This document shows positions 14,223-38,691 of a stretch of DNA of 64,000 bases, piece after piece. The notes under the pieces are model-generated. The model saw only the letters and a program-made list of their open reading frames with translations, was not told where the DNA came from and ran no database searches. Made by a program: the position numbers and the translations under genes. Within the stretch, counting starts at the first letter, position 1, and each line of letters opens with the position of its first letter. The stretch is from Thuidium tamariscinum (taxonomy: Eukaryota > Streptophyta > Bryopsida > Hypnales > Thuidiaceae), in NCBI GenBank assembly GCA_947034885.2, contig OX344753.2, positions 10,912,001-10,976,000 on the forward strand, in the 5' to 3' direction.

Positions 14223-17200
14223 ATGGTGGGCGGCGAGAGAGAGGGAAGCTTAAGGGTTCATGCAATTGCACCTTCTGGGGGTGTGCATCCACCTGCGGCA
14301 GGGCCTGTGCCTGTTGTTGCGAATGGGGGAAGTGGAAACGGTAACGCCGGAAAGGGAGGTGGAGGTTTAGTTGTGGAGAAAGTGAAGTTCACGGTGTCTG
14401 TGAGGGGTCACCAGTGGAGCTCGGCGCGTCATGTCAACGAGACGCTGGAGGAGTTTGCTGCTGCCATTGAGGTTCGTTTCGCAAGGCTGTTGTTAGTTTG
14501 TTACCAACTGGGTGAGGCGTTGTGTGCGCTTTAACTGCATGTGCGGTTGTGTACGTACCCGTCTGTGAGATATTGCGCATCGTTAGTGAAGCTTGATCAT
14601 TGTGGTGCTTACGGTGACAGCCGAAGTAGGCGATGAAACTGCTTAGGAATGGTTGATGTATGTGATTGTCATTTCGGTTGCTTTGGACGCAATTGAGAAA
14701 TGTTGTTGGAGATCGGTACACTGGGGGGTACGTAGTTACTGACTTTTGGTGGGTTTTTGATGAAGGACATCTGAAAGGTTACTGAAAATTACTTGTGCGC
14801 GCTTGGTCTGAGAATTGACCGGTAGCGAGTCGTTCGCGTTGCGGTTGCAAAATAGAGCATGTTGACATCGCTTTGCTGTCGATTATTAAGAGCCAATTGT
14901 CGTTGTGAGTGGTGCTTGCTGACGTTCAGTTTCCTGTGTGGCAGCGCAACGCACGGCGTCTGGCCTTCATCGACAACGACGACAGCATCCAGCGCTTGCA
15001 GCTGGCGTACAGCGATGGCTCCGAGCCCGAGGATCTGGATGTGGACGCCACGCTCGGCGACGTGATCATCTGCATGGGCGACAAGCAACTTCTGGCCATT
15101 GTGAATTCCAACCAACGAATGCCCAGCAACGGCCCTCTCACGCAACGCAGAGACTCGGAGTCCCCCCCGCAAATCACCAACGCCATAGCCAGTCACTGCA
15201 ACGTCAGCGTCGCAGCTCCTAGCAGCTCTCCCGACCTCGTCGCCCCCACCGCGGCGCCGAAGTTCCCGATCCCCGATTACAAACCTCCTTGCAGGTCCAC
15301 TGTAACCACCGACCCAAGAGCGTCCAAACTGAACGCACTGCCTGAGTCTCCGTCCCTGCAATTCCAACCCGTGGAAAGAGCATGCTCGTTCCACCCGGAT
15401 TCCGCAGCAGGCGCGGGTCTGCCGCCGTTACCAAGACCCAATGGCAAACTCAACATGGGTGGCGCAGGCAAACCAGCCAGCGGCCCCGGCACGGTGCAGC
15501 AGCAGTTCTGCAATCCAACGCCATCGCCAGCGGAGCTCGCCAACATGCTAGTGCGAAGCTCCTCTCAACGCATGCAAGGCCACGGCGTCACTGGCGTCTC
15601 CGGCGCCACAGGAGTGAGTGCATCCACCAATACTCGTTCCCCTGCGACGCCTGCACCCACTGCAGGTTTTCAGTCCTTCGCATCCGCGTTGCTGAGTCGG
15701 TTGCCGATGCTTCCCAATCAGAACATCCAGTGTCCGCACGGCGCCACCACCAACATCGCGCTCCTGGCGCAGTTCCTGGCGTCGCAGTTGCGAGCGTTTT
15801 CAACTCCCGGCGCCGCGCTCCCCACTCCTGCGTCGTGTGGCGATCACAAGGCGCCCAAAGTCACGAATTCCGCCGCGAATCCTGTCGTGAATCCCGTCTC
15901 GAATGCTTCCCCGGCTTGCAACCTCCAAGCTGAGAAGGAGAACCGTCCTGACCACGGCGTGCAAGCGAATAATTTTGGTTCCCCCAACCATCCTGATGCT
16001 GCGAATAATGCGAAGCTGCCTGTGAGTGGCGCGACCAGTCATGATGAAAATTCGAAGGAGAAGTCTTCGTCGTCCTCGTTCTCGTCGGCGGATGTGCACA
16101 ACTCTTCGGCGCCGCCAAGCGGAGATGGCGAAGGAGTGGATAGCGAGTTGCCCAACGGAGGTTCCGAGATCGTGTTTCTGGTGAACCGACGCAGCAAGAC
16201 GGTGAGTTTCAGTGTAGTCTATGTCTAGCTTTGGGTTATATAATGACTGCTCTTGGTATCATGGTCTGTAGATAATGAAGTTGACTGTGAAGGTTGCGAA
16301 TGCTGTACAATGCATGCATGTGAAAGTCAGTGTGCTGTTGTACTGATTTCAGCGCTGTTGCTGTTGTTTTACCATGTAGCGGCCGCAGGGAGTTGGAACG
16401 CATCAGTTAAGGATGTCGGACTTATCCGTGTACTTCCATCTGAGTGTTGTTAATGCTGCGAAGAAGCTGGGAGTCTCGCAGACAACTCTGAAGAAAGCGT
16501 GCCGAAAGTTTGGGCTGAAACGATGGCCTGGCCGTAAGGTAGCTTCTAATTTTCAGAATTCATTCCAGTTCCACGCATTTGCATATTATTAAAATCAATC
16601 AGCGTTTCGAAATGAACCGTGTGTATGTTGTGGCATCTTTTTTCTCATGCTTGGATTGGTGGTGTAAACCTGTCACAGTTAGGGTCTTTGAAATAGTATT
16701 AATCTGACTTTGACTAGTAGTGGGATCAAGTCCTACTCGGGCCACCCCCACGGAGTCCACGTATGCAACTTGATGAAACAGGACATGATTTCCCCTAATA
16801 AACGTGCTTTAATTTCTTATACTTTCTTTTTCTGTAAAATTTTGACGTCAACAGCAGAGAGCTCACATAATTAGGTTTGGTATACATTTACGATTCATGA
16901 CGCCCACCTTGAATACTTAGAATGTCATGTATTTCCAACAATTTAGTGAAATTGATGCCCATTTGCTCATAAATGGAGCGTTTATAACAATCATATATTG
17001 CATAATTATTGTTTGTAGTAACTTGATGATGCATTCAGGTCAGGAGCTTGGAGAGCACTATACATGGCCTCGAGCACACTATTGCTGTAGGTCAGGGGGC
17101 TGGCTTGGAGGAGTTGACCGAAGCCTACATGCGGTCCGAAGTCTCTAAGCTGCAGCAGGAGATGGACCAGTTAGTCCACGGTACTCCTGCGCAGGTAACA

Positions 17201-18405
17201 CAGAAAATGGTAATATTTTTTCACTAACACACACCTCTTTCTCTTTTGATAATGCTTGATGTTCCAAGGATTTTCATTACCAACATCAAATTTCATGCAG
17301 TCACCTTGTTACCCAAATTAACGATTACTCCTCATACTGATGACCGCCTTACTTAAACGTCAATTTCGTTGATTTGGCGGTATTCCAAGCCACTTCAGAA
17401 CACGTACGGTCGTACGCCGCCAGAAACATAAATCTGTACCCGACCTAGTTTCTAGAGCTTTGTGCTCATTTTTTTTATCACCGTTTTTAGTAATCTAATC
17501 AATTTAGTATGCTTACTTTGATTGCTTTTGTTGTTAGCCACAAAGCTAATAAATGAACCGTCGTTTCTTACTTCACTTCTTTTTACTGTATGTTGATAAT
17601 CATCTTGATAATTACTTAGCCTTGCTTCCTTGTTATAATATGCAATATAATAACGAGATTCAGAGCCCCAGAATTGTGTCCTTCAACTAAGGTACAAAAG
17701 CTCCTGAATATAAAACTGTTACAGATTACGTGTGAGGGCGCCATCCAGCATGGAAAGTTCCAAAGCCATGAACAACCGTGAATTTCACGGAATTCACGTT
17801 CTTTACTGCTGTTGATGACGGGATTAACTCACTGCTTCGAATTCCACTGAGTCTTTTCGAATTCCTTGATTTTGCAGCGTTCGCCCGGTGTGAAGACTGG
17901 GGATACATACAAGCGCCTCTACTCCCGCGGCTGGCGCTCCAGATTCCACAGCGCAGGGCGCCCTGACACGATCCCCCTCGACACCGGCAACCCCACCAAA
18001 CGAGCCTCCGGACTTGCACCGCCAACCAAGCGCAAATACAGAAAATCCGCCACAAGAGAGTACCGCAGGGGACCTCGAAAGGCAATCGCCGCTTCCAAGG
18101 AGGACCCTGTGGTAACGCCAACGTCGGTCAAGAACCGTCCTCGAGACACCGTGATGAAGGATTGCGACATTGAGGGGTTGTTGCCTGAGGTTCATGACAT
18201 TCATCCAAATGAAGCTCCAGCTCCAGAGACTGCTTTGTTGGCGGAGAATGGCAACCACAATCATGGCAGTCCCAAGAGAACGAGTGGTGAGAAGGAGCAA
18301 GATGTGGCGTTTGGGGAGGATACCCTGATTGCTGAACGAAGTCCCAAGCGACAGAAAACGGAGCGTCGGAATGATGCTGAAGATGGGGATGTAGTGCAAG
18401 GCTGA
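14223..18405 (+). CDS. RWP-RK (RKD-like) transcription factor, copy A
   Basis: A predicted nuclear DNA-binding regulator of 784 aa in five exons, all joined in phase 0 at GT-AG introns: 14223-14471, 14930-16201, 16389-16538, 17039-17194, 17878-18405. Residues 1-45 are Gly-rich. About 50-145 form a compact conserved module not assigned to a family (exon 1/2 junction at 83/84). About 150-500 are Ser/Pro/Asn-rich and probably disordered. The RWP-RK domain spans about 508-575, with AAKKLGVSQTTLKKACRK and the signature RWPGRK (552-557) ending exon 3. Exon 4 continues with VRSLESTIHGLE and a coiled-coil-like stretch. Exon 5 is basic (KRASGLAPPTKRKYRK, SPKRQKTERR), a likely nuclear localisation region. 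The start is the first ATG after the conserved TATA and is shared with copy B. RWP-RK proteins are known to act in nitrogen responses (NLP), egg-cell and gametophyte fate (RKD) and algal mating type (MID). The lack of NLP N-terminal domains and of a C-terminal PB1 favours the RKD-like side. Its exact role is unknown. Confidence 0.9.
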
Positions 18406-19210
18406 AGCTGCAACACTTGTGCTGTCTGATGAGCCGGGATCGGAGCAGTTGTTTTTCATTGTACAGCGGTTCGTAATGTTAATCAACGTCGGTTGATTTC
18501 AGGAACTTTGGACTACGTAAGCACTAGATATTCCTGTTTTGCTGAAGACCCAGGAATATCATTTTGTACTATTTCCTAGCCAGTGAAGTTACAAAGACAT
18601 TATAAATACTAATCCCTATTTTACGGAAGTTTAGTACGTTATCACGGATTGCTGCCGAAGCTGGTATTGTAGAACAACCTGGCTTAAGCTCCAGCTTTTG
18701 CACCGTCTGCAGGTAGCATGGCTCCGGCCAAGTCGCATAGTCTAACGGTTTCTAATGTTGATCAACGTCGGTTGATTCACGGAAGCTAGAACTACGTCCT
18801 CAATATTGGCCTGTTTTCCTGAACCCAAGACTATGGAATATATCTACCATAATTTCTGTAATCGTTGTCGAAATACTAGATATTGGAGGCTATTTTACGG
18901 TTGTTTAACTAGTTTTCACTGATTGCTGCTGAAGCGGGTGTTGAGGGCAAGCTTGAAGCTCCAGCACCAGCGCCGTCGATCAGAAGGTAGCAATGCTAGC
19001 TGTGCATGACCAAGTCGTTCGATCTTACAGCCGTTTCTAATGTTGATCAACGTGGGTTAAATATCGCTGAGTCATGGAAGTTTGAACTACTAACGTCGTT
19101 GGCATAGTCTGAAATTCCTGTTTTGCTGAAAGATAATTAATGCAATGTCATTCTTGGGTCTCATAGTAATGCTAGTTACAAGATGTTAGAGGCTAATCCA
19201 CGGTAGTTTA
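18400..19210 (+). repeat. three tandem ~280-bp modules at the 3' end of gene A
   Basis: The segment starting at the stop codon of gene A is repeated three times with moderate divergence. The anchor GTTGATCAACGTCGGTTGAT (or a close variant) occurs at 18478, 18757 and 19042. Each module also has a 'gctgaag(c)tgc...gtctg' block resembling the last codons of exon 5 and an 'attgctgc(c/t)gaagc' block. Gene B has two comparable modules. These may be 3'-UTR duplications. Confidence 0.75.
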
Positions 19211-19369
19211 ATTGGCACAGGAAGAAGCAGGGCTTGGATGAAAGTTTCAATTTAATTTTTTATTTTAAATCAATGGCCAGAAAAATTTAGGGGGGGTTGT
19301 TTCAACTTGTTTGGAAGGGGATGGAGCCATCTTTTCAGTGTATTTAGTCTATTTATGATCCATTCCTTA

Positions 19370-19480
19370 ACTAGTTCAATCAATTTGCCTCTAGGCTCTA
19401 TCAATTTCATTATGATCCATTCTTTAACTATTTCAATCAATTTGCCTCTAGGCTCTAACAATTGAAATTGAGTCAATTTG
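19370..19480. repeat. two-copy tandem repeat, about 58-60 bp
   Basis: The phrase 'caatcaatttgcctctaggctct' occurs at about 19377 and 19435, each preceded by 'atgatccattc(c/t)ttaact'. It lies directly before the 71-bp array. Confidence 0.6.
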
Positions 19481-19489
19481 TCACTAGTT

Positions 19490-19848
19490 CTTCGAGTAGT
19501 ACCTATAACCAAGCTAAATAATTTCTAGTTGAATGATCTCTCTATGTGTCTTCCACTTTAATACGAGTAGTACCTATAACCAAGCTAAATAATTTCCAAT
19601 TGAATGATCTCTCTATGTGTCTTCCACTTTAATACGAGTAGTACCTATAACCAAGCTAAATAATTTCCAATTGAATGATCTCTCTATGTGTCTTCCACTT
19701 TAATACAAGTAGTACCTATAACCAAGCTAAATAATTTCCAATTGAATGATCTCTCTATGTGTCTTCCACTTTAATACAAGTAGTACCTATAACCAAGCTA
19801 AATAATTTTCAATTGAATGATCTTTCTATGTGTCTTCCACTTTAATAC
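19490..19848. repeat. 71-bp tandem repeat, 5 copies
   Basis: The word ACCTATAACCAAGC begins at 19501, 19572, 19643, 19714 and 19785, an exact 71-bp period with very few differences between units. Units run together without spacers, so this is a satellite-like array and not CRISPR. High identity implies recent amplification. Confidence 0.9.
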
Positions 19849-19849
19849 C

Positions 19850-22120
19850 TTGATGACGACATGCTCACAACTTTTAGAAATAATCACTATTGCATACAAA
19901 TGAACGTAATCAATATTATGCTATTGTGACAATTAGATGAATTATTGACCAAATTCACTTAGCTATTACACTATATTGATTAGTCTCTAAGATCCCATTG
20001 CTTGTCTATAAAAATTATAGAGGGATCTTATAACTCCACCAGTCTCTCAATTGTTGATTGTAAATGGACAAGATGCAATCTAATTCAACATACACACATT
20101 CAACAATCATTGCAATTTGAAGTGTAGTTAGAGTGCTTAGGTTGTAGGTTATATTTTCAATTGACTTCTAGTCTCAAGTTTGTTCCAAATTAACACATTT
20201 GATCTTCAATAATTAAATTCTTTCTACTTGTAGACCACATGAACAATTAATCCCATCTCATCAACAAACACTTTGCAAACCTTAAGTAATTAATTGTGAT
20301 TCAATATCACACCAAACCTCAAACTTTGCAATTTTGTTCAAACATACAAATTACAAGCTCTATACTCATAGAAAAATAGATTGGTTACATTTCATCATTC
20401 ATTCTTGCAATCTTTTTGATTCACAAACAAGACATCAAATTATGGGCTCTACACTAATGAAAAATAGATTGGTTACACCCAATCATTCAGTCTCACAGTC
20501 CTTTCAACTTACAAACATCACATCAAATTTCCTCTCCAACAATTTCATTCAATTTTCTCACTAAGATTTGCAGCTCAAGACAACTTGTTTCACAATCAAT
20601 TTTACTGTCACAATCCTTATACAAATGACAAGTAGTCAATCAAGTATTATTACACCACCAGAGAACTTGATTTGTCAATTCAACCACTCATCAATTTTTT
20701 TCAATTTTATTTTTATTCTTTTCTCACAATGACAAAATCACTTACATAATGTTGTACAACAACTTAGGTACTCAACAAATAAAGAATTTCATACAAAACT
20801 TGGGAGACTAAAGCATGTACATTCAAATTTTGTAACTCATAAATTATAATAGTAGACTTAATTGTTTGCAAATTGCCTAAGATTGGCAAGAACATTTCAT
20901 TCAACAACTAACATGAAAGAGCCTCAAAACAAAGAAAAAGTAAAAGTGAGAAGATTCAATGGAGTAGAGATAAAATTTATTGTTCAAAATTTTTCTACAA
21001 AATGACGACTTTTCAATGAAAGGACACAAGTTCAACCTAACTTCTTGCACATCTCAAATAATAAATCCTTTTTAAGATCATGCCTTTGTGCCAAGTAGAT
21101 ATCTCAAGTAAAATATCTAATACTTTAGCTATTCAAAAATGGATATGATTCAATTTGACTATAGCTTATTTGCACTTGCAAAACAACTTGCCCATAGAAT
21201 TCAAAAATTGGACACACTACATTCTAGCATAACACAATGTCTTCAAAAGAATTTTTTCCCCAAGGATGTAGATGAATGTAGCTATTGCAGGTTAACAAAA
21301 AGGTCATTTTTTTCAACATATTTTCTTATCCTCAAAGGACGCTTGTAGGTTAGAGGGCAAGGTGACTATACATGTAGCAATCATAGAAAGGAAAACCCAA
21401 AATAAATGAAAAGGCCAATCTCCTTCAAAAATAATGAATAGAGATTTATATAAGAATTCATCCATTTCATTTTTGCAATTCTCCAAGAATCAAATGACTC
21501 ATGTATTATTAAATCTATTTATTATTTGAAACTTTCAAAGACTCTTCCTAATCGTGAATGATTTATGACTTTGAATGTATAAATAAAACCCAAAGGTGGT
21601 AACAACTTTCCCTTTTAAATTTTGCAATTCTTTGCTTGTCCTAATAATCATAAATTATTTGCCTATGTTGTTTGTAACATGAAAAATGAAGGGTGGAGAT
21701 TTGAGTAAGCACTTCCCTGTTATTTTTTCAAATTTTGAAGAATCATTCTATTCATGTATTTTTTTTATGTTGATCTAAAAATAAAATAAAAGATAAAGAA
21801 TGAAGTAATAGGGTAACTATTTATTTTTGTAATTCTCAAAAAATTGTGCTATCTATATGGCTATATATTATTTGGCACAATGAATTTAATAATAAAACAT
21901 GGAGGACAAATGTTTAAAGAAAAGCTTGCATATTTGTTTTCTGCAATTTTTTTAACACTCTTATTAGAGGGGATTCGTATTACAAATTTTTGAGCCATTG
22001 ATTGGCGGTCTTCTTGTGCTTGTTTCTTCGTTTTGCTAGGAATTGGCAGGTTTCGATGTTTGGACAATGGGCCAGGGATTGGTTATTGTTCCATTTCTTG
22101 TTTGTTGTTTTTCTTTTGGG
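19850..22120. other. AT-rich spacer
   Basis: No gene is recognisable. A loose two-copy repeat of about 95 bp lies at 20345-20535 (shared phrase 'aaaatagattggttaca'). A degenerate repeat unit related to 10.4 kb, in opposite orientation, lies at 21420-21850. Confidence 0.45.
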
Positions 22121-24285
22121 AGTTTTTGTCAATTAGTCAAAGAGGGCTGATTTGCCTGATTGGTATCAAGTTCATAGTTGTATTCAATCTATGATCTGTT
22201 TATTTGACAAATTGACATTGTACAAGTCTGTTTCACAAGTCGAATAGACAAAGTATATTAAGTTGAGGTAGAGTTAATCCAGTGAGTGGCTAAAGATTTG
22301 ATATTTTATTAGTGTCAATTAGCCAGTGATTGGCAATATTATGCTTTAGTTTGTTGTTTATTAGACCAGCTAGGAGAGGTATGGGAAGTATAGAAAGAGC
22401 ATTTCACTTCTTTAAATAAAACTAGGGAGTAGTTATGGAAGTTGGTCAATTAATCAAATTGTCTGTATTTGGAGCTGCTAAATGGAGTTCAAGCCAAGGA
22501 ACAGAAGCTGAGGAGCTAAAACTGTCGATATGCAAATTGAAAGACAAATAGACTATAAGTGAAGTTTCTGACAATGGTTAGTCAATTTGTCAATATTATT
22601 AAAGAATATATCCTTGTTATCATCTTTGCAATGTATTTTGGACAATGCACAAATTTATAATTAAGGTTTAATAATAAGTGATTGGTATTTTAAGTCAAAT
22701 AGACTAAAAAGGGAAATTTGGTTAAGCCAGAGATTGACTTACCTTATTTGTTTCAATTGAAAAATTTTAAATTTAAAATAAAGTCATGTCTAATGGTCTG
22801 TGGTGATTAATAAGTGATTATTTGATGTCCAATAGACTATAAGAAATTTGTTGGAAGGAGAGAAATTAAGTTTGCATTAAATTTGTCAAGTCAATGATTG
22901 GCATTATTACTTTTCTATGTTATCAGTCTAATAGTCATATGGGTTAAAGCTAAATCTTGGAAATTTAGAAGTTTAAAGTCAAATCAACAATGCTGGATAG
23001 CAAGATAGATTTTCTTCAAGTTATAAAATATATCAAGAATGTTTATTTTGTGAAGTCAATTAGTCTATTAACTTACCAATTAAAGAGTCAAGGATTGGCT
23101 GAGGCTTTGAAATTTAAAGTCAATTATATTTGATGTATGAAAGTCTGAATACCATGAGAATTAATCTGGATGGGTCTAATGGTTTGGACAAAAATTATTT
23201 TAATAAATATTAATGTGAGATGAAATATTCAGTAAGAAACTGAATATGTGTGCTGAAATTAATTGTCTAATTGACTAAGTATCTTCCTAGTTGTCATTGT
23301 AGTGGTGTTACTTGTTAATATCTTAGAAGAAAATTTTTGAATATAATATTTTGGATTATAATAAACCAATCAATTAGTCTATGCCAAAGAAGATTAAAAT
23401 TGTTGAATTAAATCAATATGTATGTTTCATTAAAATAATGAATTAAATGGTTTAATTATAAAATTTCAATGCAATCAAATTGCTTGGTGTTTGAAACAAT
23501 GTTGACAAATCATATTTAACATTATGTGACAAGTTGTTTGTTGCAAGGAAATTAGGAAACATAATCTTTTGTAATAGATAGAATCTTTGATATGTTTTGA
23601 TGAAATCTAATGTATATACCTCTGGACAAATGGACAAAACTTGATCAAGAGACAAATTGACAAAGTTAGTTAGAAATAGTTAGCTAGAATATGGTAGCAA
23701 GACCATTTGACCAAGTAAATAGTATGCAATTGTAAATGCATGTGTGATTATGGACCAATTGGCTCCTAGCCTAATTTGGAGAAAGATGTTGCTATGACTA
23801 ATTGACTCAAAGGATAATGAAGCAGGGAGTATTTTTTGTTGTCTTTTGTGTGTTTTGCAAACTGGCCCAATTGACAATTAGTGACAGTGAAAATATGGTT
23901 TTCCAATTAAAGCAATTAGATTAGTAAATAGAGATATTGGACCAATTGACAAAATATTAAAAATAAAAATTAATTAAGGAATTACAAAGCTATATCTTTA
24001 CACCAATATACATATATAAATTGTGGGTTTGATTAAGTCGATAGAACAGGAGCCAAGACTATGTGACACACCTTGACTATTTGACATTAGAATTCTAGTT
24101 TAAGATTGTGACAATAAGTCAAGGATTAGTTTCCATGGGAATTGGACAGAATTTAAGATAGGTTAGGACAAGAAATACCTTTAGAAAATTAATTCTTTTA
24201 ATTTTTAATCTTTGATTTCCATAAATGAGTAATAATCCTATATAAAAGTGACTTTAGATACAAAACGATAGACTATTTGACTTTT
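22120..24285. repeat. domain with many degenerate GAC/GTC-(A/T-rich 4-5)-GAC/GTC words
   Basis: Roughly two dozen short words of the type GTCAATTAGTC, GACAAATAGAC, GACAAATTGAC or GACCAATTGAC are scattered through 2.2 kb, for example near 22128, 22206, 22239, 22443, 22542, 22578, 22695, 22826, 23060, 23263, 23645, 23795, 23860, 23938, 24060 and 24270. The intervening sequence is not obviously repetitive. No gene is seen. The meaning is unknown. Confidence 0.45.
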
Positions 24286-25261: not shown

Positions 25262-26245
25262 GAGAGAAACTCCCTCTATATATGCAGAGGTAGGAGGTCA
25301 ACCAACCTATATGGGATAGGTGAATTTTTGAAGTTATGAGAGCTCATAGTGAAGTTAGAAATCCATAATTTTATAATAAAACTAAGATTTTAGACCTCAT
25401 TTGAGCATAGTATAATATCTTTTTTCAAAAAAATTTGAATTAAGACTATTTAGGATATGAATTGGAGTTTCAAGTTCAAAAATAATTTTGACATTTTAAG
25501 TTTTCAATCAGAAGTTATAGGCATATTTCAAAGAGGAAGCTTCAAAAACTATAATAAGAACAATTTCAAACACTTCTTTGAAATTTCATAACTTTTGATT
25601 GAAAACTTGAAATGTCAAAAGAATTTTTGGATGCAAAACTTGAGTTTATTTTTGAACTAATTTAGTTCAATTTTTTTTTTATAAACACATTCTTCTATGC
25701 CTAAATGAGGTCTAAAGTTTTACTTTCAACACAATTCCTATTTCTAACTTTACACATTACTGAATTAGAAATAGGAATTGTGCTGAAAGTTGAACTTCAG
25801 ACCTCATTTAGGCATAGAAGAATGTGTTTTTTCAAAAATAATTGAATTAACATTAGTTAGAAAATAAACTCAAGTTTTGCATTCAAAAATTCTTTTGACA
25901 TTTCAAGTTTTCAATCAAAAGTTATGAAATTTCAAAGAGGTGGTTGAAATTGTTCTTATTATATTTTTTGAAACTTCCTGTTTGAAATATGCCTATAACT
26001 TCTGATTGAAAACTTGAAATGTCAAAAGAATTTTTGAACTTGAAACTATAATTTATATTATAACTAGTCTTAGTTCAAAGTTTTTTGAAAAAAGACATTA
26101 TACTATGCTCAAATGAGGTCTAAAATCTTAGTTGTATTATAAGATTACAGATTTCTAACTTCACTATGAGCTCACAACTTCAAAAAATCATATCCCATAT
26201 AGGTTGGTCGACCTCCTATCTCCATATGTGTATATAAAGAGATTC
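25262..26245. repeat. 980-bp near-perfect palindrome (fold-back element)
   Basis: The left arm (about 25262-25750) is the reverse complement of the right arm (about 25765-26245), with the centre near 25757. Outer landmarks are 'gtaggaggtcaaccaacctat' against 'ataggttggtcgacctcctat'. Inner landmarks are 'aattcctatttctaa' against 'ttagaaataggaatt'. Each arm also contains a smaller inverted repeat around 'cataacttttgattgaaaac'. Arm identity looks well over 80%. A transcript would form a very long hairpin. There is no coding capacity. Confidence 0.85.
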
Positions 26246-26249: not shown

Positions 26250-27738
26250 CTCAATTCATTTCACATAATACAAATGATTCATGGTGGAGAATAATTTAGT
26301 AAATAAATTAACTCTATGTTTTTGATTTGTTTTAGTCAACATTTTGGAAAGTTGATAAAAGAAATTTAAAAATTTCAATCATTCCAAAATATTTCATCTA
26401 AAAATTTATCATTCATTTGATAAAATTTCATCCAATTTTTTTTCTAGCCATTATTTCTAGTATTTTATTAAATCCTTGAAAAATATTTTTTAGGATTAAG
26501 TACGTGATGTGGAAATTAAAAAAATCCACAGTGGCAAAGGAGTGAGAAGAAGACTTGCTGACGTGTATCTTTGTTCGAATTGACAGCCAAATTGATAGAA
26601 TTCTGTCAAAAAAGCGTCCGAAACAGAGGCCCCTAATCTATCGCACAATCGATAGAATTTTGTCAAGTTGGCTGTCAATTCGGACACAATTTTCTCTTGT
26701 AGTGCCTCCTTATCAAAAAATTAGGAGCCTTTAGATTTGAAATCAAGAAAATCACACACCCCTCCAAGAAAAATCAACAATGGTTGGATACATATATTGA
26801 ATACAGATATAGATATTAGATACGAATAGTAGATATAGATATTGAGTACGGATATTGAGTATGGTTATATGAATATGAATATTGAATATGGATATGGATA
26901 CTAAATACAAATACAAATATAATAATGCAAATGTGAATGCCATTTTTTATCCCATATTGATTGTATGAAGGCCCACCTTATCAAAATTATAAGAAGGGGT
27001 AGGGGTGAGGAGTACTCAAAATTAATAAATTTTTAATATTTAAATTTTAATATTTAAATTAGATTTGGGGTTGAAAATAATTAAAATTTTAAAATTTTAG
27101 AGCTCATTGTGACAATTTGTCACAACAATGAACTCAAAAGAAGCAGTAACTGACCTTAATAAGGACATATATACAAAAAAAAGTTGATAGTAATTAGACT
27201 TGAGGGATGAAAGATAATAAATTTTCAATTTCGAATCTCATAAAAAATTTAGAAGTTTGGACAAAAATTAGAAAATTGGTTGTAGAAAATTATCATAGAA
27301 CACTTCACCCATCACGATATTGAATTGATATTTTTAGTTTTAGTTTAGTTTTTCAATAAATTACTTTTATCATTATTTTGATTTTAATTAAAATTAAAAA
27401 AATAATAATTTTCTTGCCAATATTTTTGCTATTTCTATATGCCAAATAAATATATTTTTTTAAATAAAAGAACTAATAGAACACATGACATTAAATGTTA
27501 GTGTTGCAAATGATTTTCTATATTTAAAAAATTCTGAAAATGGATATGAAAAGAAATTAAGGAAGTCTTAGCCATTATTGTTGTTACTATTACAAATGAC
27601 ATAAATTACTAATGGTTATTACAAAAATAAGGGGCATACTAATTAGAATGAAGATATCTATGGTGAAACTCTTTTTGTAGAATATAGAATACAAACTATA
27701 CTATAATAATATAGCCCTAGAATTAAAATATTAGTTTA
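26250..27738. other. AT-rich spacer with second GATAT-type run
   Basis: A degenerate ATATTGAATATGGATAT run lies at 26775-26945 and ends in 'cccatattgattgta', matching the one at 3.6-3.8 kb. A short inverted repeat around 'ttgacagccaa' lies at about 26578-26590 and 26670-26685. No gene is seen. Confidence 0.45.
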
Positions 27739-27742
27739 TTAA

Positions 27743-28667
27743 CCCCTAAAGGACCAACATGCCTTTTTTGGCAACATAGCGATTTTGGGCAGGTACGTGT
27801 GGCTAGAGATTTCAATATTTTGGAACTAAAATTTAATAGAAGGTGTGGACGAGGAGTATCTTCAAAGCCCAACAGTTTTCGTGACTTTTGACTACATGGT
27901 TGAAAAGTTATTGTATAAAATGTTGTTTGTTTCTCAACTCGGGCAATTTGGGCAAATATAAAAAAATCACTTTTTTTGGAAATAAAAATTTGAATTTGGT
28001 CTTATAGATTAATATATATATGGAAAGCTTTGAATCATTCCATTTGGATTGATGAGTCAAAAATTATGAAGAATTTTAGTTTGCGGGTAGTTATGGATTC
28101 TCCTCTCTAAAATAAACTTTGAAGTCCTTTATTTGACTCAATTTTCAATATTTTTGAAAAAGAATAAAAACATTGGGTGTAGATTGTTTATTATGATATT
28201 TGAACCATTGGGATTGACATTTTTCAATTCAATAAATAAATTGTTACCATTTTTGTATTTTGAATCATTCTCTACTTCTTCCTACTTACTATTTTTTTTG
28301 TACATGTTGTACAATTTCAAATAATCTGAAAATTTTCAAGCATGTAGCCAACTTGAATTGGAGAATTAATTCAAAGAGTTGCAACCATTTTGGACATTTT
28401 TTCATACAAATGTGGCCTTCTGAAGTGCAACTGCCCAGATTTCCGCAGTGGAAAAAAAATGATTTTTGTAACTTCAAACACTATTATCTTGCAATCTACA
28501 TGGCGAAAATTTCTGAAATTTTTTTTACATCTTCCCAAACTAGTGAACTAAACGATCCTATGGTTCTATGTGGCGAAAAATGTTTTTTTTCTGAAATTTG
28601 GTAGTTGTCCGAGAAATGACAGTTTTGGAGCAATTTTGGTGGAAACATAGTTGCGGTCCTTTAGGGG
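27743..28667. mobile_element. 925-bp TTAA-flanked non-autonomous element, copy 1
   Basis: Flanked by TTAA at 27739-27742 and 28668-28671. The ends are perfect 13-bp inverted repeats, CCCCTAAAGGACC and GGTCCTTTAGGGG. It is collinear over its whole length with copies at 61424-62348 and 62951-63897. The internal frames are short and differ between copies, so it does not encode a transposase. TTAA target duplication and CCC-type ends match the known behaviour of piggyBac elements. Confidence 0.85.
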
Positions 28668-28671
28668 TTAA

Positions 28672-28938
28672 ACAATAATGAAATTTCTAATATCAAATTA
28701 TTTTACAATCGATTTCTACTAGAAAAATTATTTTTTCCATCCTTGTACTATTAATATTTGAAATTAACATGTGTAGGACTTAGACATTTATTTACACTTT
28801 AAATTTAAAAGAAATACATGTATTTTTAAAAATCTTGCATTAATTCAATTGCAAAATCTATACTTTAAGACAAATAGTTTGTTTTGTTTGTTTTGTTTGT
28901 CATGTTGAGATCTCCTGGCCTATGCATCCCCCAGTGGC
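28672..28938. other. short AT-rich spacer
   Basis: Contains a (TTTG)n-type run at about 28878-28902. No gene or structured repeat is seen. Confidence 0.4.
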
Positions 28939-28939
28939 A

Positions 28940-29212: not shown

Positions 29213-29214
29213 AC

Positions 29215-30363
29215 TGTGGCATCACACAAGGCACACTAGTCATTTAATAAAAAGTCTCATTTCTGCTTTAGTTGGTGATTAAATTGTATACAACACAAAG
29301 AAAAATCACACATTAAAAACAAATCCACACATAAAAGCCACTAACTACTAAATACTAATACAATAATAACAATACAAATGTCCACATTGTACCAAGCTTT
29401 GAAACAAATCTATTTGGTACAGCAACAATAGCTTTAGATTAAAATAATACAACAATAATATACAAGTACAGAACAATTAACATAATTGCTATGCACCGTG
29501 AACTATTCACGATAATGAACATTTCAGATGCACGTCAATAGAATGATTTTCTGTGTCGATTCGACTCTGATGTTGTCAATTGGTGCACTCCCTGCTGCAA
29601 CATGCCCTTGGCTGAAGAGCACTGCACCCAGAAGTCAATATATCTACAAAACTCAAAATAGAAACACTTCAAGTGAGCAGTCGACGTCGCCATCAGTTCC
29701 ACAATGTCTTCGACTTGAATGTCTTCCACAATGCCATGCAAGCATTGCAGCTTCGTAGTCCGGACGAACTGCCTATGAAGAAGAATGTGTAGATCATTGC
29801 AAGTGGTGTCATCTTGATGTGATCTTGGCGTCACCATCAATCTTGACTGATTCCTGTCCTGAAGAAAATCAATCTAAAAGTCTACTCCATGTGAACAAGC
29901 AGCTACGCAATGAGAAGCTCTGTCCCTGTAGCACTTTTTGCGCAGCAACCTTCCTCACTGCTCCCTTGGGTCCAGTGCCAACAAGAGTCTTGCCATGATA
30001 AACTGGTAACCAGTTGGTGAAAGATATATTCTGAATCCCCAAATGTTATGGGAATCAATCACGAACGCTGGCCACGAGCTCCAAAGTAAGAGATGACCAT
30101 CTGCTCATGCCAGGGCCACACGAGTGAGCAAGGCACTGAGGAGTTAAAAAATATGTTGGCCAAATGGGGAACAAGGAGCTGTGCAAAATCGGTTACGAGT
30201 GCTGATTGTCTGAACGTAACCTCAGCTTGTAGATGCCAATTCAGGGTATCATTACCAAGAGAAAGGACTGCCAGTTTGGTTGTACATATATATTCTTGAA
30301 CAAGTAAGGACCGTCAATTCGTTTCTACAAGGTCTTACCTATTAAACGCCAGTTGTCTGGTCT
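29215..30363 (-). other. 3' flank of the transporter gene
   Basis: From about 29520 the composition becomes more balanced than in the repeat fields, so this stretch may include the transporter's 3' untranslated region. Frames at 29535-29840 (-) and 30093-30299 (+) lack any recognised domain. No separate gene is supported. Confidence 0.4.
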
Positions 30364-33026
30364 TCACGCTTCAACCACTCGCTGCAAATTTTGCACCTGC
30401 CGTGTTGAGAGGGCCCGATAAACAAGCCCAGCTATGCAGAAGCCCACAAACCAAGCATTGTCATAGATGAGGGTGAAGATGTGCGCGCAGTGATGGAGAG
30501 CTCCAGTTGAGGCCAGGAACCCGGGGATGTTGGGGAGGATGCCTGCACAAAGGGCTACAATAGCTGCCACATTGTACCCATTCGTGTACCAGTACAAGCC
30601 ACCCTTATCACGAGAGAAGAGGTCATCAATATTAAGCTCCCGACCTCGCAATCCAAAGTAATCCACCAGCATGATCCCCCCCACGGGGCCCAGTAACGCA
30701 GAGTATCCGATCAACCACGTGTAGATGAAGCCCTGGCTGGATTGAATGAGCCGCCAGGGTTGCAGAAGGATTCCAAGGAGAGCAGTGACGAGTCCACCTG
30801 TTCGGAAGGAAAACACGGCCGGGTTCAAGTTCACGAGGGCGTTGGCTGGGGCCACCACATTCGCAGCAATGTTGGTGGTCAGTGTTGCTAAAATTACTCC
30901 TATGAGGGATAAAACGAGAGGTACGACACCGTCGATGCGAGACAACAACTCAATAGGGTCTGAAATTGCCTCCCCAAAGATCACTACAGTGGCTGAAGTC
31001 ACAGCCAGGCCTACAAATGTAAACCCCGCCATGAAAAAGGGTAATCCAATTGCTTGTCCTGCCAATTGGTCTACCTGGCTCTTGGAGTATCGAGTGAAAT
31101 CTGCATTAACACAAATATCACACACTCCATAAGATTCTCAAGATTCACCAGAAAGTTGGTGTTATCCCAATTGGATTAAAGATGGGAGCATAATAATCAG
31201 CAGCAGACTCACCTGGGATGTTCAAACTGAGAGTGACCCAGAAGCCAACATTGGCAGTCAAGGCTGGGAAAAAAGTTTGCCAAAACTGCCCGGCTTTAGG
31301 ACCTCCAGGGACGAACTGCGAAGGGAGTGACAACATGGGCCCGAAGCCGCCAGCTCGAACGTAAGCCCATGCTAATAATGCTCCTGACAGAACGATGAGG
31401 ATTGGCGCCCCCAGATTCTCCAGCGATCGGATACTCCCAATTCCATTCCAAATAATTCCCACCTGCACATACCAAACCCAAAACATCTTAAACCCTTAAG
31501 GACCAAGGATTCATGCTCTGAAAATGACCAATTCAATTGATCGTATTGTGAAAATAATAGAATCAAGATGTGGCCAAATTTTATATCACCAAAATCGGTA
31601 AAGAACACTGCATGTATATGTCGAAAGACGCAAAAAAATTGGACTGCAGAGTCTACGAGAGACTTACTCAAAGCTGCTAAAAAACGTTAAAAAATCAACA
31701 CATCATCTTAAAAGGACCGAGGATCCATGCTCTGAAAATAACCAATTCAGTTGATCGTATTGTGAATATGAGAGAATTCAGATGTGGGCAAATTTTATAG
31801 CACTAGAATCAGTGAAGAACACTGCATATGTTGGGCAAAAGTGAAACAAAATTCGACTAAAGAAAGTCCCAATGCGACATGCTAAAACACATAAAACTCC
31901 ATTTGGACCCCTTGATCCTTCAAAACGTTAATTCAAGAACCGAATAACAGTTGTCCATGATCATCACAACCCCATTGCAATTGTTCAAAGAAAAAACCGA
32001 AATTGCATTGGAACCTAAATCTGCCCATAACCTAACGGCTCAAATTTCGTAATATATCTAATTCTCCTTTCTACTCTGTACACGAATTGTTGGGCATAAG
32101 GCATCTTCCCAATTGTAGTGTTAGGCACCAAATAAGCCTTAATTTGCGTAAACGAAACTCAAAAGCAGCGAACAATATTGACAAATGTGTAACAAAGACG
32201 AGAAAAACCCTAGACCCGGTACTACTCCCCCCTGCGAGCAAAAATTCAAAGATTCACAACTTCTTCATGCGGTATTCAATTCCTACACTTTTGAATCCAT
32301 TGCAACCCTCTCAAAAGGACCTACAAGATTCTCACAAAAAATCATCAACAGAACAAATAGGACCCCCCACCTTACCTGCAGCCCCCAGAACGCCAAGAAA
32401 CACGCAAACTCCCCCACACTGATCCCCAATCCCGGCACCGCAGGCCCCTCCATCCCCCCTCGCAGAAGAGCATTCATCAGCTGAAACACCGCCTTCCCTC
32501 CAATCCACGTCTGAATTCCAAACCACCCACACGCCACGATCGCCCTCAACAGCGACGGCACATTCGCCCCTCGAATCCCAAAGCTCGCTCTCGCCAACAC
32601 GGGAAACGGCACTCCGAATTTAGTCCCCGCGTGTCCGCTGAGCACCAACGGCACCAACACCACCAAGTTCCCGACCAACACAGTCAAGATTCCCTGCCAC
32701 CACGCCATCCCGAGGTCGACCAAACTCCCTGCCAAGTAGTAAGTGGGCACCCCCACCACGAGTCCCACCCACAGAGAAGCCAAGTCCCCGAGGGAGAAGA
32801 TGCGGGCGTCGGGCATGGTCGGGGCGAAGTCCGCGTTGTAGAGGGAGGGGTCGGGGTGGTGAGGAGCGCGGGGAGCGATGGGTTCAACCAGCCCCGAGAG
32901 GAAACCACGGCGGGCGCCGTGATCGTGGTCGTCGTCGGGCTTGAGGAGGCGGTCAGTGGCGGAGGAGGTGTTGGAGCGGGCGTCCTTGCGGTCCATGGTG
33001 GCCAGGCGGCCGAAGATGTTCACCAT
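30364..33026 (-). CDS. NCS1-family nucleobase transporter, PLUTO-like
   Basis: A predicted membrane transporter for nucleobases of the NCS1 family (nucleobase:cation symporter 1). The plant member PLUTO imports uracil, adenine and guanine into plastids. There are three exons on the minus strand: 33026-32376, 31462-31213 and 31100-30364, with introns of 913 and 112 bp (phases 0 and 1), giving 545 aa. Residues 1-60 are polar with basic and His/Asp patches and could hold a targeting peptide. The NCS1 entry motif is visible as [13 protein letters not shown], followed by about a dozen hydrophobic segments. Conserved blocks include [43 protein letters not shown] and [16 protein letters not shown]. 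The start chosen is the ATG at 33026; a second ATG lies at 32996. Length fits the family (PLUTO is about 600 aa with transit peptide). No internal stops are present. A truncated second copy lies at 39.3-40.7 kb. Confidence 0.92.
31490..31890. repeat. ~205-bp tandem duplication inside transporter intron 1
   Basis: The phrase 'ggaccaaggattcatgctctg' at about 31500 recurs with small changes at about 31715. Each is followed by 'aaccaattca(a/g)ttgatcgtattgtg' and 'gaagaacactgcat'. The first begins TTAAACCCTTAAGGACC, similar to the ends of the TTAA elements. The pseudogene copy at 39.6 kb carries only one unit. Confidence 0.65.
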
Positions 33027-33340
33027 GGAGCAAGGCAAGGCGGAGGGAAGTGTCGAAGGGGGAAGCAAATTACAAGGGCGCCATGAGGCAATATAGGAAG
33101 CGAGGAACGCAATCGAGGAGGAGGCTCAGGGAGGCAAAGGGGAGGGATCAGTAGTCAGAGTTCCGGGGTTTGGGAATGGGGGGTTATGGAAGTTAACTTA
33201 CTGGTGGTGACGATGGCATCTGGGCCTTGTGTGGGGTTCCTTGGGTCCCTCCGCACCCACCAGCGCCCTCGTTCCCCGCCAGGTTCTGTGAAAAAATTCC
33301 ATTTGCACTTGATGCACAACATTGTATAATCAAGCAATGC
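33027..33340 (-). promoter_or_regulatory. 5' leader and putative promoter of the transporter
   Basis: GC-rich sequence directly upstream of the transporter ATG, extending to about 33290, where composition drops. No firm TATA box is recognised. The next feature outward is the inverted repeat that carries a piece of RWP-RK upstream DNA. Confidence 0.4.
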
Positions 33341-33344
33341 TCCT

Positions 33345-33865
33345 CGTGCTGGAAAGGTATTATTCGTTAGGAGCATGTTTGTTGTTGCTATTAAACAATG
33401 TTATGTGTTTGGGATCACCGTTTTTTCAAGAGAACAGTAATTCTCCTTTGCTGTTCTTACCTCATTCGAGAATATTTCGAGAATATTTCGAGGGCCGTCA
33501 CAATAGAGGTCGCTTCGCTTTCTGTGGAATGTGGCGAAAGGTAGCAGTTCCCAATCCTTGCAGCTAGTACTGTAGTGAACCATGGAGTTCAGAACTCAGA
33601 AGCAGGACGTCACTAAGGGCAACGCTATAGCCGGGATGCACTACAATTTCACACACAATTCATACAGTTTCAAGTCACATTGAATTTCGCCACATTCCAC
33701 AGAAAGCGAAGCGACCTCTATTGCGTCGGTCCTCTAAATATTCTTGAATGAGGCAAGGAGAGCAAAGGGGGTTTACTGTTCTCTAGAAAAAACGCTGCTC
33801 CCAACAGCAAGAACAAATGGAACTTAAACGCTTCTCCCAACAGCAAGAGCAAATACAACTTTTGC
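33345..33865. repeat. inverted repeat with about 120-200-bp arms and a 150-bp loop
   Basis: The left arm ends with 'cgcttcgctttctgtggaat' (about 33512-33531). The right arm begins with its complement 'attccacagaaagcgaagcg' (about 33695-33714). Outward pairing continues through 'aatatttcgagg'/'cctctaaatatt', 'cctcattcgagaa'/'ttcttgaatgagg' and, with gaps, 'gttgttgctatt'/'ccaacagcaag'. The loop at 33540-33690 is a fragment of RWP-RK upstream DNA. Confidence 0.7.
33546..33690 (+). pseudogene. fragment of the RWP-RK gene upstream flank
   Basis: Matches the DNA upstream of genes A and B in plus orientation with internal deletions. 'cagttcccaatccttg' matches the edge of the B flank (inverted at about 39304-39320), 'gggcaacgctatagccgg' matches 13670-13687 of A, and 'catacagtttcaagtcac' matches 14053-14070 of A. 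It contains no coding exon, so it is a third, relic copy of the promoter region. Confidence 0.7.
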
Positions 33866-33989
33866 ACAGATGTAAGGGCTATGGAATATCATTTCTGATT
33901 CTGTGCACTACTAATAAACCAAGGATTCATGATCGAACATCAGTGTTCACATAAGAGGTAAACACATTAGTGCTCATGTTCTATATAAA

Positions 33990-34469
33990 AGAAGGCTTCA
34001 ACCAAGCCCAGTGAGAACTAGACAACCGTGAAATATATACCCTCCAATGTCTTGTAACTTCACAATGAGGTACAAAAAGGATATTCCATATTCTTAGTTT
34101 CAGGAAAACAGGAATATTGAGGACGTAGTTCTAACTTCCATGAATCAACCGACGTTGATCAACATTAGAAACCGTTATATTACTTGGCTGCAGCCATGCT
34201 ACCTTTTGACGGTGCAAGTGCTGGAGCTTAAGCCTTATCCTACAATACCCGCAGCTTCGGCAGCAATCCGTGATAACTGAACTATCGTAACATATCTAAC
34301 CATGTCTTTGTAACTTCACTAGCTAGGATACCAAAAAATGATAATCCTTGGTCTTTGAGCAAAACAGAGATATCTAGTACGTAGTCCAAAGTTCCAGAAA
34401 TCAACCGACGTTGATCAACATTAGAAACCGCTGTAAAATGAAAACAACTGGGGAATAGCACTGCTCTCA
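33990..34469 (-). repeat. two tandem modules at the 3' end of gene B
   Basis: Read on the minus strand, two modules of about 255 bp follow the gene B stop. Their anchors ATCAACCGACGTTGATCAAC lie at 34399-34418 and 34143-34162. They correspond to the modules behind gene A, which has three. The module count therefore differs between the paralogues. Confidence 0.75.
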
Positions 34470-37400
34470 TCAGACAGCACAAGTGCTGGAGCTTAAGCCT
34501 TGCACTACAACACCAGCTTCAGCATCATTCCGACACTCCCTTTTCGGTCGCTTGGGACTTCGTTCAGCAATCGTGGTTTCCTCCACAAGCACTACTTCTT
34601 GCTCCTTCTCACCACTCGTTGTCTTGGGACTGCTAACGTGGTTGCCATTCTCCGCCAACAAAGCAGTCTCTGAAGCTGGAGCTTCATTTCCTTCCACATG
34701 AATGTCATGGACCTCAGGCAACAACCCCTCAATATCATAATCCTGCATCACGGTGTCTCGAGGACGGTCCTTGCCCGAGGCTGGCGTTACCACGGGATCC
34801 TCCTTGGAAGCGGCGATTGCCTTTCGAGGTCCCCTGCGTGGCTGATTCTCTTTGGCAGATTTTCTGTATTTGCGCGTGGTTGGCGGTGCAAGTCCGGAGG
34901 CTCGTTTGGTGGGGTTGCCGGTGTCGAGGGTGATCATCTCATGGCGACCTGCGCTGTGGTACTTGGAGCGCCAGCCGCGGGAGTAGAGACGCTTGTATAA
35001 ATCCGCAGTTCTCACAGCTGGAGAATGCTGCAAAATCAAGGAAAGACCCAGTTGAAGCAGTAATACCATCGTCAACAGAAGTAAAGAACATGAATTCCGC
35101 CGGAAGTTCATGGCTTTGGAACTATCCATGCTGGCACCCTCACACGTAAATCTGTAGCAGTCCTAAATTTGGGAACTATTATAGTTGAATGCCACAGTTC
35201 TGGGGCTCTGAACCTCGCTATTATATTGCATATTATAATCAGGAAGCAAGGCTAAGTGATCATCAACATACGGGAAGTAAAGAAAGGAATAACTATTTAC
35301 TGACTAACAAGGTGGCCAACAATAGAAGAATCAAAGTAAGCATAGTAAATTGATTAGATTGCCAAAAATGTAGTTGCAAATGAGCACAAAGCTCAAGAAA
35401 CTAGGACGGGTATAGATTTGTGTTTCTGGCCGCGTGTCCGGAAGTGGTTTGGAATACCGCCAAATTAACGACATAGACGTTTAAGTAAGGCGGTAAACAA
35501 TAGCATGATTAATTGAGCAGCATGGTGCATGAAATTTGGTGTTGGTAATGAAATCCTTGGACCATCAAGCATTACCTATAGAGCAGGAGTTGTGTGTTCA
35601 TGAGTAAATATATTACCATTTTCTGCGTTACCTGCGCAGGAGTGCCGTGGACTAGCTGGTCCATCTCCTGCTGCAGCTTACAGACTTCGGACCGCATGTA
35701 GGCTTCGCTCAACTCCTCCAACCCAGCCCCCTGGCCTACAGCAATAGTGTGCTCGAGGCCATGTATAGTGCTCTCCAAGCTCCTGACCTGGATGCAAATT
35801 AGGACAAGAAGAAATATTGTTACTAAGGCTCCATGTGTGAGCAAGCCTGAAGTTCAATATAGTTCTTCAAACATCATCAATTTTATTAAATAAGTGAACT
35901 TTCATGACAATGCCTTGTTTTTAAAGGAAGGCACCCTGAAGCGCAAATCTGTACTAGTCCTAGAGCTAGGTGCATCTGAATGTCACGATTTTTGGATCTC
36001 TGAATAGTGCCAATATAACGAAATTAACTTTAAAGTCTGAAGCCTAGCCTCGAAGTACAAAAGCAGTACTTTTCTAGCAACAGAGGCTTCCGCGCAGTAC
36101 ATATGAGCAAGTCTCATGTGCAGGCAGTATAACATAGTATTACAAATTAAAGCCATATTCACTACAGGCATGGAAATCATGTCCAGGTGGGCGGAAACCC
36201 TGGCAAAAGGACATGATTTCCTGTACACTTATTGTCACAGAATTTTTATTACATAGGCCCTGAGTGTGAAGTTCATTAAAATATTCAAGAACGAACAAAC
36301 ATTAAAAGTGTACAAAGAGATAACAGGACACGCAAATGCGTGAAACTTGAAAGAATCCTAAAAACTAGCAGCTACCTTACGGCCAGGCCATCGTTTCAGC
36401 CCAAACTTTCGGCACGCTTTCTTCAGCGTTGTCTGCGAGACTCCCAGCTTCTTCGCAGCATTGACAACACTCAGATGGAAGTACGCGGACAAATCGGACA
36501 TCCTTAGGTGATGCGTTCCAACTCCCTGCAGCCGCTAGATGGTAAAACAACAGCAACAGTATAGAAATCAATACAACAGCACAACTTTCACATCATTCAC
36601 AACACTCACAGCCAACTAAATTAACTACAGACCGTAATGCCAAGTGCGGACATTGTATAGTCCAAAGCTAGACATAGACTACACTGAACCTCACCGTCTT
36701 GCTGCGTCGGTTCACCAGAAACACGAGCTCGGAGCCTCCATTGGGCAGCTCGCTATCCACTCCTTCGCCATCTCCGCTTGGCGGCGCCAAAGAGTTGTGC
36801 ACATTCGCCGATGAGTACGACGACGACGAAGACTTCTCCTTAGAGTCTTCATGGCTGGTCGCGCCACTCACAGGCAGCTTCGCATTATTCGCAGCATCAG
36901 GATGGTTGGGGGAACCAAAATTATTCGCTTGCACGCCTTGCACGCCGTGGTCAGGACGGTTCTCCTTCTCAGCTTGGAGGTTGCAAGCCGGGGAAGCATT
37001 CGAGACGGGATTCAAGACAGGATTTGCGGCGGGATTCGTGATTTTGGGCACCTTGTGATCGCCACAAGACGCAGGAGTGGGGAGCGCGGCGCCGGGAGTT
37101 GAAAACGCTCGCAACTGCGACGCCAGGAACTGCGCCAGCAGCGCGATGTTGGTGGTGGCACCGTGCGGGCACTGGATGTTTTGGTTGGGAAGCATTGGCA
37201 ACCGGCTCAGCAACGCGGATGCGAAGGACTGGAAACCTGCAGTGGGTGCAGGAGTCGCAGGGGAACGAGTATTGGTGGATGCACTCACTCCTGTGGCGCC
37301 GGAGACGCCGGAGACACCGTGGCCTTGCATGCTGTGAGAGGAGCTTCGCACTAGCATGTTGGCGAGCTCGGCTGGCGATGGCGTTGGATTGCAGAACTGC

Positions 37401-38691
37401 TGCTGCACCGCGCCAGGGCCGCTGGCTGGTTTGCCTGCGCCACCCATGTTCAGTTTGCCATTGGGTCTTGGTAACGGCGGCAGACTGGCGCCAGCGCCAG
37501 CTACGTAATCCGGGTGAAAGGAGCATGTTCTTTCCACGGGTTGGAATTGCAGGGGCGGAGACTCAAGCGGTATGTTCAGTTTAGACGCTCTTGGGTCGGT
37601 AGTTGTAGCGGACCTGCAAGGAGGTTTGTAATTGGGGAATGGGAACTTCGGCGCCACGCTTGGGGCGAGGAGGTCGGGGGAGCTGCTAGGAGCTGCGACG
37701 CTGACATTGCAGTGGCTGGCTATGACGTTGGTGATTTGCGGGGTGGACTCGGAGTCTGGGCGTTGTGCGGGGGTGCCGTTGTTGGGCATCGGTGGGGGCG
37801 GAGTTGGTTGGTTGGAGTTCACGATGGCGAGAAGTTGCTTGTCGCCCATGCAGATGATCACGTCGCCGAGCGTGGCGTCCACATCCAGATCCTCGGGCTC
37901 GGAGCCATCGCTGTACGCCAGTTGCAAGCGCTGGATGCTGTCGTCGTTGTCGATAAAGGCCAGACGCCGCGCGTTGCGCTGCCACACAGGAAACTGAACG
38001 TCAGAAAGTACCACTCACAACGACAATTGGCTCTTAATAATCGACAGCAATGCGATGTCAACATGCTCTATTCTGCAACCGCAACGCAAACGACTCGTTA
38101 CCAGTCAATCCTCAGACCAAGTACAAATTATTTCCACTGCCCTTTCGGAGGTCCCTCATCAAAACCCACCAAAAGTCAGCACGTGCCCCCCAATGTACCG
38201 ATCTCCAACAACATTTCTCAAATGCGTCCAAAACAACCGAAATGACAATCACATACATCAACCATTCCTAAGCAGTTTCATCGCCTACTTAGGCTGTCAC
38301 CGTAGTTACGCACCACACTGATCAAGCTTCACTACCGATCAGCATTCTCTCACAGACGGGAACGTACACAACTGCACATGCAAGCGCACACAACGCATCA
38401 CACAATTAATTACAACAGCCTTGCAAAACGAACCTCAATGGCAGCAGCAAACTCCTCCAGCGTCTCGTTGATATGACGCGCCGAGCTCCACTGGTGACCC
38501 CTCACAGACACCGTAAACTTCACTTTCTCCACAACTAAACCTCCACCTCCCTTTCCGGCATTGCCGTTCCCGCTCCCCCCATTTCCAACAACGACAGGCC
38601 CTGTCGCAGGTGGATGCACCCCCCCAGAAGGTGCATTTGCATTCCCATTTCCATGAACGCTTACGCTTCCCTCTCTCTCGCCTCCCACCAT
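34470..38691 (-). CDS. RWP-RK (RKD-like) transcription factor, copy B
   Basis: An intact paralogue of copy A on the opposite strand, 806 aa, with the same five-exon, phase-0 structure: 38691-38434, 37993-36695, 36525-36376, 35787-35632, 35027-34470. The RWP-RK exon has the same length as in A (50 codons) and differs by only two residues (His for Gln and Ala for Val near its start). The signature RWPGRK lies at 564-569. The disordered exon 2 product is longer by nine codons (insertions such as PTPPPP and GAS), all multiples of three. Exon 5 ends GLSSSTCAV, so the stop lies several codons beyond that of A. No premature stop or splice-site loss is visible. In-frame indels and intact splice sites suggest both copies are, or recently were, under constraint. 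The upstream flank carries the same TATA run (38927-38938). Confidence 0.9.

Follow-up and report, generated by a model that had tools for sequence, protein, structure and literature searches.

Convergent RWP-RK gene duplicates in the moss Thuidium tamariscinum and their probable origin by tandem duplication and inversion

According to the accessible parts of the literature, work on bryophyte RWP-RK proteins centres on RKD, MID and NLP. Mating type in volvocine algae is under MID control (PMC8566403), the female-specific chromosome of Ceratodon carries one RWP-RK gene (PMC8000587) and Marchantia males are still fertile upon loss of MpMID (PMC6290024), as stated in the portions available from these papers. 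Here, two RWP-RK genes designated A and B are described from the moss Thuidium tamariscinum. They lie in a stretch of 64,000 nucleotides (hereafter the window, C5:10912001-10976000) of a 30.6 Mb contig, in a genome of 363.2 Mb and 19 contigs. The plastid PsaB protein encoded on contig C19 of this genome had its best PDB matches in three sequences of Physcomitrium photosystem I (8htu, 6l35/7xqp and 7ksq/7kux) at 1694-1698 bits, the following ones scoring 1663 bits and below, which points to a moss. A and B are an ordinary but well-preserved paralogue pair. The preferred reading, to which we give a probability of about 0.72, is that they are functional duplicates stemming from an old tandem duplication of an RWP-RK gene together with a following NCS1-type transporter gene, that an inversion came later, and that both are likely partly redundant regulators. 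No description of the pair was found among titles and abstract beginnings on RWP-RK in moss sex chromosomes, inverted tandem duplication and Ceratodon purpureus, or among those listed for RWP-RK in general, a body of text from which subscription literature was mostly missing.

Gene A (coding span 14223..18405, plus strand) encodes 782 aa in five exons (14223-14471, 14945-16201, 16380-16538, 17039-17194 and 17878-18405), and gene B (34470..38691, minus strand) encodes 804 aa, also in five exons (38691-38434, 37978-36695, 36534-36376, 35787-35632 and 35027-34470). Each is interrupted by four introns, all of phase 0 and all with GT-AG borders. Exon lengths in A and B were 249/258, 1257/1284, 159/159, 156/156 and 528/558 nt, which corresponds to differences of 9, 27, 0, 0 and 30 nt. 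The original prediction had announced two intact RWP-RK paralogues, inverted, convergent and 16 kb apart, with a common exon number and common intron phases; this is directly visible in the DNA, and the start and stop coordinates given there were correct to the base. The two stop codons are not homologous, as B displays a sense codon at the place of A's stop and continues for eight further codons. PF02042 scored 70.0 bits in A and 71.7 bits in B (curated cut-off 29.3 bits) and was the sole Pfam family above cut-off in either, while the RWPxRK motif was encountered as RWPGRK. As judged by domain and motif, A and B are RWP-RK transcription factors, for which DNA binding and dimerisation would be expected by analogy with the family. 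Exon 3 encodes the bulk of the domain (16380..16538, plus strand, ending at RWPGRK in A; 36376..36534, minus strand, in B), which including the start of exon 4 spans residues 512-559 and 524-571, respectively. Both proteins display the same layout: a conserved N-terminal domain is followed by an extended low-complexity region and then by the RWP-RK domain, behind which a coiled-coil-like stretch and a basic C-terminal tail were called by eye. A PDB search with the RWP-RK segment returned nothing better than E 0.22, and none of 23 pattern-matching viral-contig stretches (0/23) encoded a relative of this segment.

Across the 779 aligned codons both copies were free of internal stops and frameshifts, and all splice sites were unbroken, in agreement with the claim that neither copy carries a disabling mutation. 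That claim was accompanied by the statement that all length differences are multiples of three, which was confirmed for the coding gaps (10/10, also when the alignment was made without codon constraint), compared with only 5/22 gaps in introns 1, 2 and 4 and 5/12 in the 5' flank. Identity between A and B was 93.5, 93.5, 94.3, 96.2 and 88.4 % in exons 1 to 5, 91.1, 85.6, 58.6 and 83.5 % in introns 1 to 4, and 90.5 % and 79.6 % in the 5' and 3' flanks. Divergence amounted to 0.095, 0.16 and 0.19 (0.187) in introns 1, 2 and 4 and to 0.13 at fourfold sites. The exon-by-exon comparison that had been suggested as a check gave a synonymous divergence (dS) of 0.160, a nonsynonymous divergence (dN) of 0.054 and a dN/dS of 0.34 (method NG86, bootstrap interval 0.25-0.46), which is not near 1; for exons 1-4 the ratio was 0.22 (0.15-0.32). 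If one copy evolved neutrally and rates were equal, a pairwise dN/dS of at least 0.5 would be expected. As the upper bound of 0.46 lies below this value, both A and B seem to be under purifying selection on average. A relative-rate comparison with a related gene on contig C9 (L026) as outgroup yielded two unique changes in each copy and 14 sites at which all three differed, which is too few to discriminate. Intron 3 (16539-17038 in A, 35788-36375 in B) was effectively unalignable despite adjoining exons that are 94-96 % identical.

The noncoding stretch just before the start codons is strongly conserved. The core promoter of A, with a TATA-like run, and its leader occupy 13967..14222 (plus strand), and the counterparts in B occupy 38692..38937 (minus strand); both leaders contain an identical upstream open reading frame (ORF) encoding MVSLL and ending in a stop codon. 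Within the 256 bp preceding the start codon of A, 7 out of 246 aligned sites differed from B, against 209 out of 1601 silent sites (Fisher P = 1.9e-7), and divergence rose to 0.20 farther upstream. The promoter and 3' modules that A and B had been said to share are present in both. The conserved leader with its five-codon upstream ORF may control translation of both genes.

Evidence for the origin of the pair came from a feature absent from the original prediction, a truncated NCS1 copy adjoining the upstream flank of B, where A-B homology fades. Duplicated stretches were read from blastn self-matches of the window. The tract around A extends over 13612..19195 (plus strand) and that around B over 34009..39322 (minus strand), all ends being approximate (start at ~13.61-13.63 kb and end at ~19.2 kb for A; ~39.30-39.32 kb to ~34.0 kb for B). 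Directly downstream of B and on the same strand lies an NCS1-type nucleobase transporter gene (PF02133; 30364..33026, minus strand), whose pieces 33026-32382 and 31462-31214 and open frame 31137-30364 cover profile positions 7-145, 151-222 and 219-440 of 440. The truncated copy (39323..40675, or 39.31-40.68 kb, minus strand) adjoins the 5' flank of B and is a direct duplicate of this gene. It retains exon 2 and intron 1 along with a portion of exon 1, and is devoid of exon 3. Within the exon-1 piece, deletions of 20, 3 and 1 nt and an insertion of 1 nt were observed. Blastn homology between A and B ended at 39299 and was weakly traceable to ~39322, while homology to the NCS1 gene began at 39311-39323; such abutting tracts are the junction expected of a tandem duplication of the block RWP-RK gene followed by NCS1. 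Divergence of the NCS1 copy was 0.07-0.11 in its three alignable pieces, which is of the same order as the silent divergence between A and B (0.095-0.187 in introns 1, 2 and 4, 0.13 at fourfold sites).

The present order is A (+), spacer, NCS1 (-), B (-) and broken NCS1 copy (-). In the most likely order of events, a block composed of the RWP-RK gene and, next in transcription order, the NCS1 transporter would have been doubled in tandem, so that, at the duplication junction, the 5' flank of B came to meet the second NCS1 copy at its exon-2 end. Subsequently, ~21 kb would have been inverted between the second RWP-RK gene and the remainder, and some sequence would have been lost at the breakpoints. 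This event would have disrupted the second NCS1 copy and placed the RWP-RK genes in convergent orientation. Since then, selection would have preserved the core promoter, the leader and the greater part of the protein in both genes, with the C-terminal tail diverging. The most likely role of the two genes is that of regulators with partly redundant function, by way of dosage or mild subfunctionalisation, their expression and division of labour being presumed.

Several observations fit this reading less well. The A-B match is weak past 39299, and the distal alignable part of the NCS1 intron is 0.073 diverged, against 0.16-0.19 in introns 2 and 4 of the RWP-RK genes, the middle of the NCS1 intron being unalignable. 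In the window, to which the search was confined, sensitive blastn did not recover what the second NCS1 copy should have upstream of 32609, and the counterpart intergenic stretch expected beside A was missing as well; a deletion has therefore to be assumed for the lost NCS1 5' end and the intergenic remnant. Gene A also displays an extra upstream ATG at -250, absent from B and without a stop before the gene, which sits at the TATA-like run and is probably outside the transcript. Finally, exon 5 gave a dN/dS of 0.81 (0.48-1.44), indistinguishable from neutral. The missing remnant would suit an unlikely alternative in which a copy of the RWP-RK gene was inserted ectopically, as B, beside an unrelated and already broken NCS1 duplicate, without any tandem stage; local movement of gene pieces is indeed indicated by a palindromic element at 33.5 kb that contains a piece of the RWP-RK 5' flank. 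Such an origin would require two independent events whose ends, as delimited by blastn, meet within ~12 bp, and an RNA-based copy is excluded by the introns, promoter and 3' modules that were copied along. The exon 5 ratio could in turn suggest that one copy recently turned into a pseudogene or arose by misassembly. This we regard as very improbable, given the undamaged reading frames with gaps exclusively in frame, an overall dN/dS bounded by 0.46 and introns and flanks that are distinct; introns 59-91 % identical argue against misassembly.

Y-chromosome-type palindromes likewise consist of an inverted gene pair around a spacer, and the original prediction had likened the locus to such sex-chromosome structures, with exchange by gene conversion and inversion of the DNA in between. 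A and B differ from these by far more diverged arms and by the absence of a clear conversion tract, as examined by sliding identity, by fourfold sites along the genes and by permutation of silent sites. The longest identical silent run comprised 57 out of 1601 sites (permutation P = 0.06, near the line but non-significant), and when exons 1 to 5 were divided into eight segments, fourfold divergence ranged from 0.085 to 0.214 with no near-zero stretch. Arms at most ~91 % alike in introns and flanks (introns 59-91 %, intron 3 unalignable) and a dS of 0.16 are remote from the near-identical arms of a palindrome maintained by conversion. That the locus is a sex-linked or mating-type palindrome, with arms kept alike by conversion and a flipping spacer, is hence hardly probable. 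In its favour are inverted arms of at least 5 kb and the sex- or mating-type linkage of some green-algal RWP-RK genes and of the Ceratodon gene, as given in the available parts of PMC8000587 and PMC8566403. Identity is also uneven: A and B are more alike in intron 1 than in introns 2 and 4 (P = 0.0003), and identical runs of 151 bp in exon 2 and 95 bp in the promoter/leader were encountered, constraint being the simpler reading of the latter. There was no sign of recent homogenisation of the arms, while older or partial conversion is possible. The likeness to sex-chromosome palindromes was thus not supported; of the proposed inversion, an old event in the origin of the pair stood, and ongoing flipping did not. 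The facts on Ceratodon, volvocine algae and MpMID are inapplicable to A and B without orthology, and the pair alone says nothing about sex determination. A and B are transcription-factor duplicates whose origin is still readable and whose leader is conserved, and they provide a usable case for the retention of such duplicates.

The genome was searched exon by exon for the RWP-RK family and for protein A, with scores for the best candidates only. Among these, at least ten RWP-RK matches were obtained, A and B included, and the other eight sequences were examined; protein A gave 15 matches, ten of them being exons of A and B and the other five being pieces 39-53 % identical. In a tree built on 43 residues, A and B grouped with L026 on C9 and with L024 and L025 on C6, apart from the rest (support 0.97), the inner branching being unsupported (0.33). 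Over the same residues, identity to A was 58 % for L026, 55 % for L028, 51 % for L027, 44 % for L025 and 39 % for L024. These raw identities are partly at odds with the tree, and long-branch attraction may underlie the place of the two C6 genes, which evolve fast. These RWP-RK-like genes, L024 (C6:14834404) and L025 (C6:14897152), are diverged and lie on opposite strands at a distance of 63 kb; in L024, a single open frame contains the N-terminal domain as well as an RWP-RK domain that is degenerate (25-28 bits, below cut-off). L028 and L031 represent other RWP-RK forms.

NLP (NIN-like proteins) and A/B have the RWP-RK domain in common, and differ in the C-terminal PB1 and N-terminal GAF-like/NRD parts of NLP, as no Pfam match to PB1 or GAF was detected in A or B at E <= 1. 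L029 (C2) and L030 (C9), in contrast, are arranged like NLP and end in a PB1-like stretch; the best PDB matches of their C-terminal profile were PB1 proteins, at weak values (E 0.02-0.11). A PB1-like nature of the N-terminal domain of A and B was considered and gained no support, though such a fold is still conceivable: hhalign against the PB1-like ends of L029 and L030 gave 1.8 % probability, with few sequences on either side, no PDB match was better than E 0.42, and the single-sequence fold was uninformative, with a mean predicted local distance difference test score (pLDDT) of 39. RKD-type proteins carry the signature MPITQA...KKRCRE.GIPRWPHRK, by which L027 (C11) is presumably RKD-like. 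At this site A and B read HLSVVNAAKKLGVSQTTLKKACRKFGLKRWPGRK. They resemble RKD, the egg-cell/gamete regulators such as MpRKD, in the succession of RWP-RK domain and coiled-coil-like stretch (by eye), and differ by their 51 % identity to the RKD-like L027, by RWPGRK with an intron directly after it, and by the N-terminal domain. With the MID or RKD(C) proteins, such as MpMID (MpRWP2) and PpaMID, they have in common to be non-NLP RWP-RK proteins occurring in bryophytes (available part of PMC6290024); MID proteins are further marked by motif 12, which lies outside the RWP-RK domain. By sequence, A and B are neither NLP-like nor RKD-like. Of the link to gamete identity and MID that had been drawn earlier, the RWP-RK domain was retrieved, and this domain is all that the link consists of: the RKD-like signature belongs to another gene, and A and B stand elsewhere on the short tree.

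The pair may represent another RWP-RK branch besides RKD, MID and NLP. Tentatively, A, B, L026, L024 and L025 could form a separate moss subfamily, neither NLP nor RKD, of which A and B would be the latest duplicates, with a conserved upstream-ORF leader; we hold this to be possible and somewhat doubtful. One candidate mark is an undescribed N-terminal domain (W..AR...ETL..F.A...RNA..L..ID.D, later DLDVDATLGDV.ICM) predicted in A, B and L024, the identity of A/B to L024 being 50 % over the aligned segment (45-48 % in other comparisons). The other putative mark, in A, B and L026, is the intron directly after RWPGRK combined with the C-terminal motif YxRLYx(2-3)GWRSxxH; L026 matches A and B in the exon of the RWP-RK domain, in the one following it and in this motif.

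The palindromic element at 33409..33804 has arms at 33409-33539 and 33685-33804 (81 %), between which 147 bp derived from the RWP-RK 5' flank and leader are enclosed (33540-33686); diverged relatives of its arms were present on C3, C9 and C10, and the element gives the impression of a dispersed repeat that has picked up part of a gene. Two large palindromes of ~0.95 kb each (25280-26227 and 51168-52101), 88-90 % self-complementary, are hairpin-type elements. A dispersed element of ~0.94 kb occurred in three copies 79-87 % alike (27736-28671, 61417-62352 and 62944-63901), with more fragments at 9.7-10.4, 12.9-13.1 and ~42.3 kb. Pieces of a transposase that we take to be of the PiggyBac type (PF13843) were found at 157-1101 (plus strand) in two open stretches scoring 80 and 56 bits, and a queuine tRNA-ribosyltransferase gene (PF01702) at 45365-47690 (minus strand) in at least three exon pieces. 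Tandem arrays with 66-bp and 71-bp units were located at 4558-5280 and 19493-19848, the latter near the proposed inversion breakpoint beside A. Elsewhere in the assembly, psaA and psaB, both without internal stops, were encountered on contig C19 (115 kb).

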